A DNA stretch of 64,000 nt from Thermococcus stetteri (GTDB lineage: Archaea > Methanobacteriota_B > Thermococci > Thermococcales > Thermococcaceae): NCBI RefSeq assembly GCF_017873335.1, contig NZ_JAGGKB010000001.1:1-64000 (forward strand), given 5' to 3'. The position numbers were made by a program, and so were the translations under genes. The notes beneath the pieces are model-generated. The model did not search any database. It was not told the DNA's origin and worked only from the letters and a program-made list of their open reading frames with translations. Shown in pieces: positions 56,843 to 62,549 of this stretch (its first letter is position 1; every line of letters begins with the position of its first letter).

Positions 56843-57349
56843 CTAATCTGTAAGGGTTTTCTCCATTATCACGGCCCTCTCCCTGAAGCCCTTCTTTTTG
56901 TACCACTCCCTGGCCGGGTTGCCCAGTTCAACGCGCAGTGCAACCTTTCTGGCCCCGTTTTCCCTGGCCCACTCCTCAGCCCTCTCAAGGAGTGCCGTGC
57001 CTATCCCAATCCCCGGAAACAGGGTTTCTATGTCGTAAATGTAGGCAGATGGCACGAAGTCAACCGTGTCAACCTTGATGCAGACCCACACATGCCCGAG
57101 GTAGCGGCCGTATCTGTCCAGGGCAACGAAGAACTTGTGTCCACCTGTAGCCAGGAGCTCTTCTATCACCTTCGCGTAGTTCTCGCCGTATTCCTCGTCA
57201 CTCAGCTGAAAGCGCGAAAAGGACCTGCTGATCCGCCTGTCGTTCTCAAATATCTCGTCGAGGTAGTCCTCGCCGTCGGTTACCGTAAAGTACCTGGCGG
57301 TCTCCTCAATCGGGGGGAGATTAATCTGCTTTTTCTTCAACAGCGCCAT
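56843..57349 (-). CDS. GNAT-family N-acetyltransferase
   Basis: The 168-residue protein has the acetyl-CoA motif A ([20 protein letters not shown]) and motif B-like [17 protein letters not shown]. The substrate is unknown. Its first 29 bp overlap the end of the PP-loop gene upstream, so it belongs to the same operon as the DUF1611 enzyme. Confidence 0.88.
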
Positions 57350-58760
57350 TCAGGGCATCCTCCCTCGTTATTCTCACCCATCTGTCGTCCTTTAGGTAAA
57401 CGTAGCCCTTCGTGTACTCCTCAAAAATCCGGTAAAGCTTCTCTCTGAACTCCGGCGGGATGTTGTCGAAGTGAGAGTTCCTGTCATCGAAGTGGAGCAT
57501 CTCAACGTGCCAGTGCGGCTTTCCTTCCAGAGGAAAGTCAGGATTTCTCTTTATCAGGTAAAGAGAGTGCTCCAGCTCGTCTCTGTCGAGCCTAACCAGA
57601 CCTTTTTTCAACCTCTCGGGTAGGGTTTCGATGTGTTCGGGCTTGTACTTTATAATGGTTGGATCAATCCCGTTGGCAAGAAGGAAGGTCAGGATTCCGT
57701 TGCACTTGAAGCACTGGCCGCAGGGGACGTAGTCGTCGCCCTCCTTGTGGACTGAGTGGCAACTCCTCTGAAGTCTAAAGAGTTCGGGATAGCGGTTGTA
57801 GAGGATGCGCTCGACGATGAGGCCGGTTATGGGTCTCACAGCCGACCACTGCCTTATACCAAGGCCCCTCTCCTCGAACCAGGACGTCATGTACTTCTCA
57901 AAGGCCTGGCTCTGGTCGTAGGTGGCGTAGTAGTGAGGAATCCCGTGAAACTCGTAGGTGAGCCCGCGCGGGTCGTCGTACTCGTTGCCGAAGATTATGT
58001 TACCTGTCCCGTACCTGTGAATGAGGGGCAGGAAGGCGAAGGCATAGCCCTCAAAGAAGAAGAGCCTTATCGGATAGACCTCGGCCCTTGGCTTCCCGAC
58101 GTTCTGGAGTATCTTCATGTTCTTCTCTATGAAGGTGTAGAGCCTGTCGGCATTGCTCCAGACGCGCTTTGTCTTCGGCTCGTTCTCCCTAAACCAGCGG
58201 TAGGCTGGGAGGGCAACGTGCCAGTGGGCACCGGATTCGTTGTAGAAGAAGGGATAGACCTCACAGCCGAGCTCCTTCATCAGGCCGTAGGTCAAGAGGC
58301 TCTCCTTTCCGCCAGAGAGCATCACGGCGCATCTGTTGTAGTCCGGCTCGAACTCGACCGGCTCCTCCTCTATTCCCTCCGGTATTACCTCGGCTAGCGG
58401 CTGTGGCTTAATCTCCTTCGGGATGAACTCCTCGCGGACGAAGCCAGTCCTCGTGTAGATTCTGTTCACGAGGATGTCGTTCGCGGTAATCTGCATCATA
58501 TCTCTGAAGAACTTCAGGTCGCGGGGGTCGAGGGGGAAGTCGAAGCGTATCTCCCTCGTGAAGAGGCCGTAGTTTATGGCCGGAACTATGCTCATGAGCT
58601 TGGCGTAAACCTCTATCTCTTGAATCCTCTCCTCGTAGCTGTGGACGAGGTCGTAGGAGAGTTCTTATCCATCCACACCCAAGACGTAGCGCGCTTTTAT
58701 GCTCCTTGAACTGATCTTGGGCCTCTCGATGAGGATGTAATCAAAGCACAGAAGGCTCAT
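57321..58760 (-). pseudogene. MurL-like PP-loop protein interrupted by an in-frame stop codon
   Basis: The main frame (from 58595) has a PP-loop AVMLSGGKESLLTYG, HWHVALPAYRWF and a cysteine group QRSCHSVH/CGQCFKC near 300. This resembles the family of MurL, which in Xanthomonas epimerises the terminal L-Glu of UDP-MurNAc-L-Ala-L-Glu; archaeal members have no proven role. Upstream in the same frame the coding continues (ELSYDLVHSYEERIQEIEVY) to a TAA at 58665-58667 and beyond it (MSLLCFDYILIERPK to RYVLGVDG) back to ATG 58760, which overlaps the DUF1611 stop. A single stop thus splits an otherwise intact 479-codon gene. It may be a nonsense mutation or a base error. Confidence 0.8.
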
Positions 58761-59838
58761 TCTCGGGGACCTCCCTCGGGACGAAGGCCTTTCTCTCCAT
58801 TGAGAGCCTGACAATCTCCCTAGCTATGTCATATACTCCCTCGTAGAACGGAACGCGGGTTAGGATTCCCGTTCTCTCCTCTATATTTCTTGCCTCTTCG
58901 AGCGCCTCTTTCCTTGTGAGGTTCTCCGTGTTTATCGTTATTGCCACGGGTTTCTTTCCCGAGAGCAGTTCTATGAGCCGGATGTAGTTTTCGAGCGGCG
59001 GTATCCTGTACTGCGGGAAGTCGTCGAAGGTCTTCCTGCCCGGTGCGTGCTGGAGAACGATGAAGTCAGGTCTGGTAGCACCTATCAGCTCGAAGCCGCC
59101 CGGAAACGCCGGGTGGAGGAGTGAGCCCTCACCGTGGGTCACAATGATGTCCGGCTTCTCCTCGATCCACGCCCTGTAGAAGACATCCTCTATGGCACCA
59201 GCAACGAAGTCGTTGATTATCGAGTCCATCACTATGCAGTACTTGAAGCCCTGCATCCAGCCTGTCTGTCCCATCGCTATGAACTCGCTCTTGAGGCCGA
59301 GGTTCTTGAAGGCCTCGTGGAGCATTATCGCGGTTGTCCTCTTGCCTATGGCAGCGTCAGTCCCGAGAACGGCGACCTTTACGGCCTTCACTTCCTCTAT
59401 CTTGCCGGTGAAGGGTATCCTCATGTTGTAGAATATCTTCCTGACGTCGATTATCTCGACGCCGTACCTCTTGGCGAGCCTCTTAAGGTAGAAGTCGTCG
59501 CTCAGGAAGTGGTGAAGGCCGTTCACTATTCCAAGGCCGTTCTTTATGGCCTTAATGACTATCTTGCGATAGCTCTCGGGAAGGAAGCCTCCAGGCGTTG
59601 CTACCCCAATGATGAGCCACTTCGCGTCCGGGTGTTCCCTAAGGGCGTCCTCCAGCGTGCCGTATATCGGGATGTTCCGTCTTTTGCCGTCGAGCACTTC
59701 ACCGGCGTCCTTGCCGGCGAGGGTCGAGTCTATGAGTCCAGCTATCTCAAACCTTTTCGAGTAGCGCACAAGCCCGTGCGCGGTTTTCCCATCTGACGTA
59801 AGATAGCGCCCCTCCGTAAGCACCAAGGCCTTCTCCAC
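58741..59838 (-). CDS. DUF1611 (DgcN-like) protein
   Basis: The 365-residue protein has an N-terminal Rossmann domain (ALVLTEGRYLTSDGKTAHGLV; WLIIGVATPGGFLP) and a C-terminal P-loop domain (VLGTDAAIGKRTTAIML, MGQTGWMQGF, THGEGSLLHPAFPG), which is DUF1611. The bacterial member DgcN was shown to N-acetylate D-glutamate. Next to a MurL-like gene this hints at D-glutamate chemistry. GGAGGTG six bases upstream favours GTG 59838 over GTG 59847. It overlaps the frame of the PLP gene by about 90 bp, which is unusual. Confidence 0.85.
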   Translation of the reverse strand: MEKALVLTEGRYLTSDGKTAHGLVRYSKRFEIAGLIDSTLAGKDAGEVLDGKRRNIPIYGTLEDALREHPDAKWLIIGVATPGGFLPESYRKIVIKAIKNGLGIVNGLHHFLSDDFYLKRLAKRYGVEIIDVRKIFYNMRIPFTGKIEEVKAVKVAVLGTDAAIGKRTTAIMLHEAFKNLGLKSEFIAMGQTGWMQGFKYCIVMDSIINDFVAGAIEDVFYRAWIEEKPDIIVTHGEGSLLHPAFPGGFELIGATRPDFIVLQHAPGRKTFDDFPQYRIPPLENYIRLIELLSGKKPVAITINTENLTRKEALEEARNIEERTGILTRVPFYEGVYDIAREIVRLSMERKAFVPREVPENEPSVL

Positions 59839-60738
59839 CGTGGACACCTCCGGTCAATACCAACACGAAGTTTCCTCTCCACGTCCCAAACTTCCGGGCG
59901 AACTTCACAAGCCCCGCTATGGTCAGGGCCGATGCCGGCAGAGCAGAGATCCCCTCCGTTTTTTCGAGCAAAAGAGCGTACTGAACTGCGTCATCATCGG
60001 CGAAGCCAAAGATGTAGCCGCTGGACTCGTAAACAGCCTTGAAGGCCTCTAGAGCATCAAAGGATATCATCGACACAAGCGGCTCGTTCACGGGAGTTTC
60101 GACGAACTCGTTCGTTTCGACACCGTAGAACTGCCAGAGCACCTGGTTGCCGAGGCTCGTCGTTACGCCCACCATCCTCGGGTTCTCACCCCGCTTCCTG
60201 AAGCCGTGCCATATCCCAGCCAGTGTCGTTCCGTTCCCAACCGGAACAAAGACTGCATCGGGCCTTACTTCCCTCAGGATGTCGTCTGCTATCTTAGAGT
60301 AGCCCTCGTAGTCGATTTCCGGGTTGCTTCCAGGGTTTGCATCGTAGGCGCCGTTCTCAACTGCGAACTTCCTGCTCTCAAAGACGACTTTCTCGTAGGG
60401 GCCGGGTATGGGTATAACCTCGGCACCGTAAGCGAGCATCTCGCCGGCCCTTTCGAGGGTGTAGCCCGCTGGGACGAAGATGTAGGCTTTGAGGCCGTAG
60501 ACCTTGGCGTAGTACGCCACCGCCACGCCGTAGTTGCCGCAGGTGCCCACGGTGATGGCAGAATAGCCCTCTTCCGCGGCCCGCTTTGCGTGGGCTTCGG
60601 CGATCCTGTCCTTGTGGGTTTCCGTCGGGTTCTTCCCTCGAAGTCAAGGTATATTCTCCTTATGCCGAGGATTCTCTCGAGGTTCTTGGCCCTTATGAGC
60701 GGGCCGCCATCGTCATCGGAGTCGTTTTGGCCCCCCAT
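59747..60738 (-). pseudogene. Threonine-synthase-like PLP enzyme broken by a frameshift
   Basis: From ATG 60738 (after GGTGAC) the frame reads GGPLIRAKNLERILGIRR and IYLDFEG, then goes wrong. One base later the next frame gives KNPTETHKDRIAEAHAKRAA, with the PLP lysine in HKDR, and continues in the main frame with VGTCGNYGVAVAYYAK (phosphate loop region), PVGNGTTLAGIW and VLTGGVHGGEG. A missing G in the GGG at 60635-60637 explains it. The family includes threonine synthase and cysteate or 2-amino-acid enzymes. The gene heads the operon, with a TATA box AATTTATATACC near 60859-60870. Confidence 0.85.
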
Positions 60739-60970: not shown

Positions 60971-61019
60971 CCCTTTAGCTCCACCCCCGACGCCCCTCAT
61001 GGGAGGGGAGGTGGTCGGT

Positions 61020-61232
61020 ATGTACTACCCGCCCAAGAAGAAAGTCCAGCCCAAGAAGGTTGAGGAAGAAGAGGAAGAGGAGTTCGAGCCACTCGATGCA
61101 GTCGAAGAAGCCTACGAAAACTGGGACGAAGAAGAGGAATTCGAGGAAGAGTGGGAAGAGGACGAGTGGGACGAAGACTGGGAAGACGAAGAAGACTGGG
61201 ATGAGGACTGGGAGGAGAATGAAGAGCACTGA
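61020..61232 (+). CDS. Extremely acidic tryptophan-rich small protein
   Basis: After a basic start (MYYPPKKKVQPKKV) the 70-residue protein is nearly all Glu/Asp with regularly spaced tryptophans (ENWDEEEEF, EEEWEEDEWDEDWED, EEDWDEDWEE). Such a chain cannot form a normal core; it may mimic nucleic acid, bind cations or chaperone a basic protein. GGAGGTGG puts the start at ATG 61020. It has a good promoter and is 27 bp from the MFS gene, so it is real and probably cotranscribed. No family is known to me. Confidence 0.8.
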   Translation: MYYPPKKKVQPKKVEEEEEEEFEPLDAVEEAYENWDEEEEFEEEWEEDEWDEDWEDEEDWDEDWEENEEH

Positions 61233-61259: not shown

Positions 61260-62549
61260 ATGAAGGGCCGGCCGGTAAAGAGACAGAAGACCACCCTCAA
61301 GACCCTTGAAAAGCGCCGCCAGATGCGGCACCGGCCGGATCCCGGCAGGTGGTTCTATTCTTTTATCCCGTTTAAGGTCGCCATGGGCGGAGCTGCACCT
61401 TTGATTCCTCTCCTCACTCTCAACGTCGGCGGCGGGCCGGCTGATGTCGGTATAGTCAACGCAGTGGGCAGTACCTTCTCAATGCTGGGCGGCCTTTTCT
61501 GGGGGAAGCTCAGCGACAGGCTCAACCGGAGAAAGGCATTCCTCCTTCTGGGGTTCATCGGGACTGCAATAACAACGATGGTCTTTGCTTTTGCCCACAG
61601 CGTCTCCCAAGTTATTGCCATAAACGCGGCCTACACCTTCTTCATAGCCGCGGCGATCCCAATTCCAATCCTTATAATAACTAAGGTATTCCGTCTCGAG
61701 GACTGGGACTACGCAATAGGGAAGTTCAACGAGATAGGTGGCTGGGCATGGGTTCTCGGTCTCATAGTGGGACTCCTTCTAACGCCCGTGCTGGGGATTA
61801 AGGGCACTTTCATAGCACTCGGAGTTATCGGGCTCCTCTCGTTTCCATGGGGCAAGAGGACAATACGAGAAGTCCCACTCCACATCGACAGAAAAATCCT
61901 TGGCGTTTACGCCGGCTACGTCGTTGAGAAGTTCAGATACCTTCCCAACATGATAACCCACCTGCCGAGGTTCTCCACCAAGGGCTTTGGGCGGCTCTAC
62001 TTCTCCTCCTTCCTGTTCTGGGTAGGCGCAATGCTGTACTTTACCCAGTTTCCGGTTCTCCTTAAGTCGAGAGGCTTTGGTGCCACTCACCTCTACCTCA
62101 TGAGCATAGGGAACTCCACCATATCGGCCTTCATGTACACCCGGGTCGGTGTAAAACTCAAAAAGAGCGGGGGCTATCCAGCCCTCATCAGGGGGCTCTC
62201 AGTTAGATCCTTCGCCTTTTCCCTCCTGGCTATCTCTACACTGATTGAAGGACATGTCTTTGAAGTCCTCGCCTTCATCTCGTACTTCCTGGCGGGTTAC
62301 ACGTGGGCATACATAGGAATCTCGACGACCTCGATAATCTCCCGCTTCGCCCCGCCTAAAGAGAGGGGTGCGCTGATAGGGACGTACAACATGATAAGCT
62401 CACTGGGTGCGATAGCGGGGAACTTCCTGAGCGGCTTTCTAACGGAAGAGCTTGTTTTTACTGTGGATTTCACAGCCGCAACTGCTCTCCTCCTGGTTTC
62501 GGTACTCCCCCTCCTCGACGAGAGGGTTAAAAGCAAAAACTCCAACTAA
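61260..62549 (+). CDS. MFS transporter
   Basis: The 429-residue protein has about 12 membrane segments and the MFS loop motif GKLSDRLNRRKAF after helix 2; a cationic N-terminal tail of some 28 residues precedes helix 1. The substrate is unknown; drug or sugar efflux are options. GAGGTGCTCCC precedes ATG 61260. It is followed within 15 bp by the alcohol dehydrogenase gene. Confidence 0.9.
   Translation: MKGRPVKRQKTTLKTLEKRRQMRHRPDPGRWFYSFIPFKVAMGGAAPLIPLLTLNVGGGPADVGIVNAVGSTFSMLGGLFWGKLSDRLNRRKAFLLLGFIGTAITTMVFAFAHSVSQVIAINAAYTFFIAAAIPIPILIITKVFRLEDWDYAIGKFNEIGGWAWVLGLIVGLLLTPVLGIKGTFIALGVIGLLSFPWGKRTIREVPLHIDRKILGVYAGYVVEKFRYLPNMITHLPRFSTKGFGRLYFSSFLFWVGAMLYFTQFPVLLKSRGFGATHLYLMSIGNSTISAFMYTRVGVKLKKSGGYPALIRGLSVRSFAFSLLAISTLIEGHVFEVLAFISYFLAGYTWAYIGISTTSIISRFAPPKERGALIGTYNMISSLGAIAGNFLSGFLTEELVFTVDFTAATALLLVSVLPLLDERVKSKNSN

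Follow-up and report, generated by a model that had tools for sequence, protein, structure and literature searches.

A conserved archaeal operon joins a DUF1611 protein to a predicted PP-loop ATPase of the MurL/QueC superfamily and may invert N-acylated amino acids

What would an archaeon without peptidoglycan do with relatives of MurL and DgcN, two enzymes which are linked to D-glutamate in bacteria? This question is raised by the first 64,000 nucleotides of contig NZ_JAGGKB010000001.1 (hereafter the window) from the draft genome of Thermococcus stetteri (GCF_017873335.1; 2.03 Mb, 7 contigs). The original prediction described here an operon containing both relatives together with a PLP enzyme and a GNAT, and suggested a D-amino-acid or N-acyl-amino-acid pathway in Thermococcales. 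The reading we prefer, at a probability of roughly 45%, is that the operon encodes an ATP-driven archaeal module for the stereoinversion of N-acyl-amino acids. Nothing in the module points to glutamate specifically.

Organisation of the operon

All four genes which had been predicted to form an operon were found on the minus strand, in the order PLP enzyme, DUF1611 protein, PP-loop protein (PPL) and GNAT, with neighbouring genes overlapping or abutting. The features are as follows:

59747–60738, minus strand: PLP fold-type II enzyme of the PRK06381 “threonine synthase” family; first gene, in two frames
58741–59847, minus strand: DUF1611 protein of the DgcN family, with Rossmann-like and P-loop domains (PF07755, PF17396)
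57321–58760, minus strand: PPL, predicted PP-loop ATPase with a Cys4 motif, MurL/QueC superfamily (hhalign to MurL; AlphaFold2 model)
56843–57349, minus strand: GNAT acetyltransferase (PF00583, E = 6e−10); last operon gene in Thermococcales
61260–62549, plus strand: divergent MFS transporter, upstream of the operon (PF07690, matched on the L033 orthologue)

The GNAT lies mostly beyond 57321–60738, the interval originally given for the operon, and its best PDB match was 1vkc, a putative acetyl transferase (E = 3e−52). The MFS gene was missing from that account, even though it co-occurs with PPL across genomes. The stretch separating the divergent PLP and MFS genes also contains an ORF of 77 amino acids (60999–61232, plus strand) with very acidic Glu/Asp/Trp repeats.

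We used the closest relative, L086 (83% DNA identity over 4.4 kb aligned), as the reference for lesions in the window genome. Compared to this locus a single base is missing from the PLP gene near 60632, which shifts the reading frame, and PPL has an in-frame TAA at 58667–58665 where L086 has a sense codon; the 424-aa ORF of PPL starts at an internal ATG (58595). Because of the deletion and the early TAA the operon in the window genome is probably inactive, unless these lesions are assembly errors.

Distribution in Thermococcales and Thermoplasmatota

Our sensitive survey covered Thermococcales (94 genomes) and Thermoplasmatota (390 genomes). PPL matches were found in 28 of the Thermococcales genomes, 25 of them substantial, and the PLP-DUF1611-PPL-GNAT order was kept in 22 loci, these being the loci long enough for order to be judged, in differing chromosomal contexts and with gene overlaps of about 4–100 nt (by longest ORF). 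This retention argues that the four-gene arrangement is not due to chance. The MFS gene adjoins the operon in nearly all Thermococcales loci and was present in 23/25 PPL-positive genomes vs 7/69 PPL-negative genomes (Fisher: P = 1e−13, a value which overstates independence as relatives share ancestry). Decay was also seen: in G029 all five genes are fragmented, the MFS gene decaying with the operon, G027 and G089 carry operon lesions as well and mere scraps of PPL are left in G010 and G011. The operon therefore looks like a dispensable trait in Thermococcales, under intermittent selection. In six loci from one Thermococcales genus (L036, L039–L042 and L050) a threonine-synthase homologue lies a few genes from the module.

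A scan of genome contigs gave two Thermoplasmatota loci, and a targeted search then identified PPL in 68/390 Thermoplasmatota genomes. PLP, DUF1611 and PPL genes were contiguous in 31 of the 38 loci inspected and DUF1611-PPL in 36, while no GNAT or MFS gene was found at any of these 38 loci; at least 5 loci have DUF1611-PPL with no adjoining PLP gene. The core of the module is therefore DUF1611-PPL, to which the PLP enzyme is usually added, and placing the pathway in Thermococcales was too narrow in scope. Thermococcales PPL proteins form one clade (SH-aLRT 99), and pairwise distances of the PLP, DUF1611 and PPL genes correlate at 0.82–0.87, showing that the three genes are a conserved unit. 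A search of plasmids with an archaeal PPL protein gave no match. One DUF1611 protein which adjoins PPL (L124:6682–8259) has approximately 215 extra N-terminal residues with no Pfam match, and no PLP enzyme is found at this locus.

In 25 Thermoplasmatota loci the module adjoins a D-aminoacyl-tRNA deacylase (Dtd), and it often lies between Dtd and Tsr3 (L091, L092 and others). We considered this adjacency as independent support for D-amino-acid chemistry and rejected it, as it is accounted for by local synteny: the ancestral ValS-141-Dtd-Tsr3 order persists in loci with no module (L269, L270 and L283 being similar in this respect; in L269, from genome G573, the same site is empty), and Dtd is near-universal in the order (108/117). 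It should also be noted that Dtd-PLP gaps are 58–334 nt, whereas module genes overlap or abut.

The PP-loop protein is closer in sequence to MurL than to QueC

MurL, reported in 2021, was presented as the first epimerase with ATP as co-substrate. Its reaction depends on ATP and Mg, yields AMP and proceeds from L to D only; its authors propose that the alpha-carboxylate is adenylated (PMC5808125, PMC8788868). Reviews list it as having no known conserved domain and a mechanism which is not settled.

At the sequence level PPL matched nothing in Pfam, NCBIfam or the PDB, the NCBIfam QueC family (TIGR00364) included, apart from a weak Pfam hit to DUF6395 (E = 0.08–0.41), which MurL did not match. 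PDB sequence searches with the PPL profile or with MurL returned nothing meaningful. We compared PPL to a MurL profile made from five sequences: a RefSeq-named murL, which adjoins murD on a replicon of Xanthomonas sacchari, and four other homologues of MurL. The ATPase core of PPL aligned to this profile over 191 columns (hhalign: Prob 96%, E = 6e−9), compared to Prob 79% and E = 1.5e−5 for PPL against the QueC profile and 61% and 8e−5 for MurL against the QueC profile. Control comparisons to PPL scored as follows: TilS, AsnB, GuaA and NadE (single sequences) 4% or less; reversed and column-shuffled MurL under 1%; and a PAPS-reductase-like protein 78%, but across the 39-column PP-loop alone. 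The motifs GGK[ED]S, SC[HN] and CxxCxKC, picked after seeing the alignment, occur in 56–57 of 57 PPL proteins, 5/5 MurL and 0/28 QueC, and the SGGLDS motif of QueC occurs in 0/57 PPL proteins. When the N- and C-terminal domains of PPL were taken by themselves there was no detectable similarity to MurL (Prob 0.1% or less).

The AlphaFold2 model of PPL, from 8 sequences (pLDDT 87, pTM 0.89), had QueC and then Cap9 as its best PDB matches by Foldseek (against 2pg3: E = 2.3e−5, prob 1.00, target TM about 0.65), there being no MurL structure to compare against. The predicted fold is thus QueC-like. Like PPL, these two closest solved structures have a PP-loop fold and a C-terminal Cys cluster; unlike them, PPL has approximately 140 extra N-terminal and 120 extra C-terminal residues and sits in an amino-acid operon. 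MurL shares with PPL the PP-loop ATPase core, a similar length (451 vs 484 aa), N- and C-terminal extensions and the three motifs above, and it is the best profile match. However, the archaeal loci lack MurD2 or any peptidoglycan context, being linked to DUF1611 instead, and we saw no Mur ligase among the module neighbours (PLP, DUF1611, GNAT and MFS).

Taken on sequence and predicted structure, PPL is a PP-loop ATPase of the MurL/QueC superfamily, and its profile scores put it closer to MurL than to QueC. The kinship with MurL which had been claimed for it thus held in the ATPase core but did not extend to the flanking domains; the proposed refutation, a phylogeny with PPL far from MurL, was approached through these profile scores.

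DUF1611 is paired with racemases elsewhere

Both domains of DgcN (DUF1611_N and DUF1611) are present in the archaeal protein (PF07755, E = 3e−64; PF17396, E = 2.5e−30), and its relatives in the PDB are 2g0t, 2obn and 7xrj. Against the DgcN equivalog model NF041892 it scored 158 bits (155 in Thermoplasmatota), the cut-off being 480. Its sequence therefore marks it as DgcN-related at the family level, as originally suggested, but with a score far under the DgcN cut-off.

In bacteria, DgcN and DgcA convert D-Glu to L-Glu through an N-acetyl intermediate (PMC10845958). We opened five bacterial or haloarchaeal loci and in 5/5 the next gene after DUF1611 belonged to a racemase or epimerase family: DgcA in Klebsiella, a dipeptide epimerase in Haloprofundus and an alanine-racemase fold in Vibrio, Aliiroseovarius and Phaeobacter. 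Two racemase folds thus fill this slot elsewhere, and in the archaeal module it is filled by a third fold, that of PPL, which stands in the place of DgcA, which was not adjacent to DUF1611 at the module loci. The archaeal operon resembles the DgcN-DgcA pathway in having a DUF1611-family enzyme in a tight operon with a putative racemase or epimerase; it differs in that the partner is a predicted PP-loop ATPase rather than an enolase-superfamily racemase, in the added PLP enzyme and in the distance from Klebsiella DgcN (28–32% identity, with the archaeal score under the DgcN cut-off). DUF1611 proteins on Vibrio and roseobacter plasmids are nearer to the archaeal ones (about 36–39%) than DgcN is, and most residues which are invariant in the module proteins recur in these bacterial, alanine-racemase-linked members; their downstream, overlapping partner is, however, a fold-type III PLP racemase rather than PPL, and no fold-type II PLP enzyme was seen beside them. 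We did not find the archaeal operon described in the open-access literature (subscription journals being mostly outside coverage), in which mentions of DUF1611 concerned Dickeya or its phages. On the plasmids in question (L166–L168) DUF1611 overlaps the alanine-racemase-fold gene, and in the two roseobacter plasmids it is preceded by three small hypothetical proteins.

The PLP enzyme

The PLP enzyme matches PF00291 and scores 291 bits against NF004996 from the fragment in the window and 365 and 412 bits in intact copies (cut-off 266). The nearest solved structures are threonine synthases, not known racemases. GN in the asparagine loop is preceded by Cys in 51/51 copies (TCGNYG or SCGNYG), while the separate threonine-synthase homologue near the module in several genomes has STGNMA, with Thr before GN. 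In serine racemase a Ser near the asparagine-loop position acts as the second acid/base; by analogy, a racemase role for the PLP enzyme is possible.

Proposed function and alternatives

When the chemistry of MurL is combined with the DgcN-DgcA route, the likeliest sequence is that DUF1611 first acylates the substrate and PPL then inverts it at the expense of ATP. An amino acid would be acylated, probably acetylated, at its amino group by the DUF1611 enzyme. In the next step PPL would turn the carboxylate of this product into an acyl-adenylate, with ATP going to AMP and PPi; the alpha proton would become more acidic and the centre could be inverted one way only, along the lines suggested for MurL. 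PPL would thereby replace DgcA, the enolase-type N-acetyl-amino-acid racemase of the bacterial pair. The fold-type II PLP enzyme may make or process the free amino acid and, in Thermococcales, the MFS transporter may move substrate or product and the GNAT may be a further acyltransferase. The D-amino-acid or N-acyl-amino-acid role which had been suggested for the operon is thus favoured, through the pairing of DUF1611 with racemases elsewhere, and the focus on glutamate is not.

The main alternative is that PPL works as QueC and Cap9 do, adenylating a carboxylate which is then captured by ammonia or another nucleophile, so that the operon product would be an amide or conjugate of an N-acylated amino acid (an osmolyte or a small secreted metabolite which leaves the cell through the MFS transporter) with no stereoinversion. 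Carboxylate activation does lead to products other than inversion in QueC and Cap9, and these two were the best structure matches to PPL (QueC: E = 2e−5, target TM about 0.65), PPL is matched by the QueC profile as well (E = 1.5e−5), the C-terminal Cys motif is common to all three and in Thermococcales the operon is accompanied by an MFS transporter and includes a GNAT. The sequence match to MurL is nonetheless several orders of magnitude stronger and extends to motifs which are absent from QueC, and DUF1611 is paired with racemases elsewhere; we regard the amide or conjugate route as rather unlikely, though a serious competitor. That the flow runs from D to L, with the MFS transporter taking up the D-amino acids of bacterial debris, which DUF1611 and its partners convert to L for fermentation, would agree with the direction of DgcN-DgcA in bacteria, and the patchy distribution and relics suit a dispensable nutrient pathway. 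As MurL runs from L to D only, and the MFS protein resembles efflux families, if only weakly, such scavenging seems improbable. We give still less weight to a pathway defined by the PLP enzyme, in which beta/gamma-replacement of the threonine-synthase kind makes a non-protein amino acid that is modified by DUF1611 and PPL with no stereochemistry involved: the nearest solved structures and the NCBIfam name (“threonine synthase”) speak for it, but the PLP enzyme does not look like part of the core, because of the Thermoplasmatota loci which keep DUF1611-PPL without it.

Returning to N-acyl-amino-acid stereoinversion, we suggest, as a more tentative extension, that the PPL family as a whole may drive one-way, ATP-dependent inversion of N-acylated amino acids, with D-amino acids or their N-acyl derivatives as the products in both Thermococcales and Thermoplasmatota. 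On this view ATP-dependent stereo-inverters would form a wider superfamily, with MurL as one of its branches. If this is true, amino-acid handedness is flipped at the expense of ATP in archaea which have no peptidoglycan, and the family offers a testable route to such chemistry. The comparison also assigns MurL to the PP-loop (QueC-like) class and connects it with a large family in archaea whose operon partner is clear and whose homologues could provide thermostable proteins for solving the mechanism.

A search of viral contigs with MurL gave no match. MurL homologues were seen on three Pseudonocardia plasmids (L171, L172 and L173), with no MurD-like gene annotated nearby, and on an unverified phage contig from human faeces (L175).
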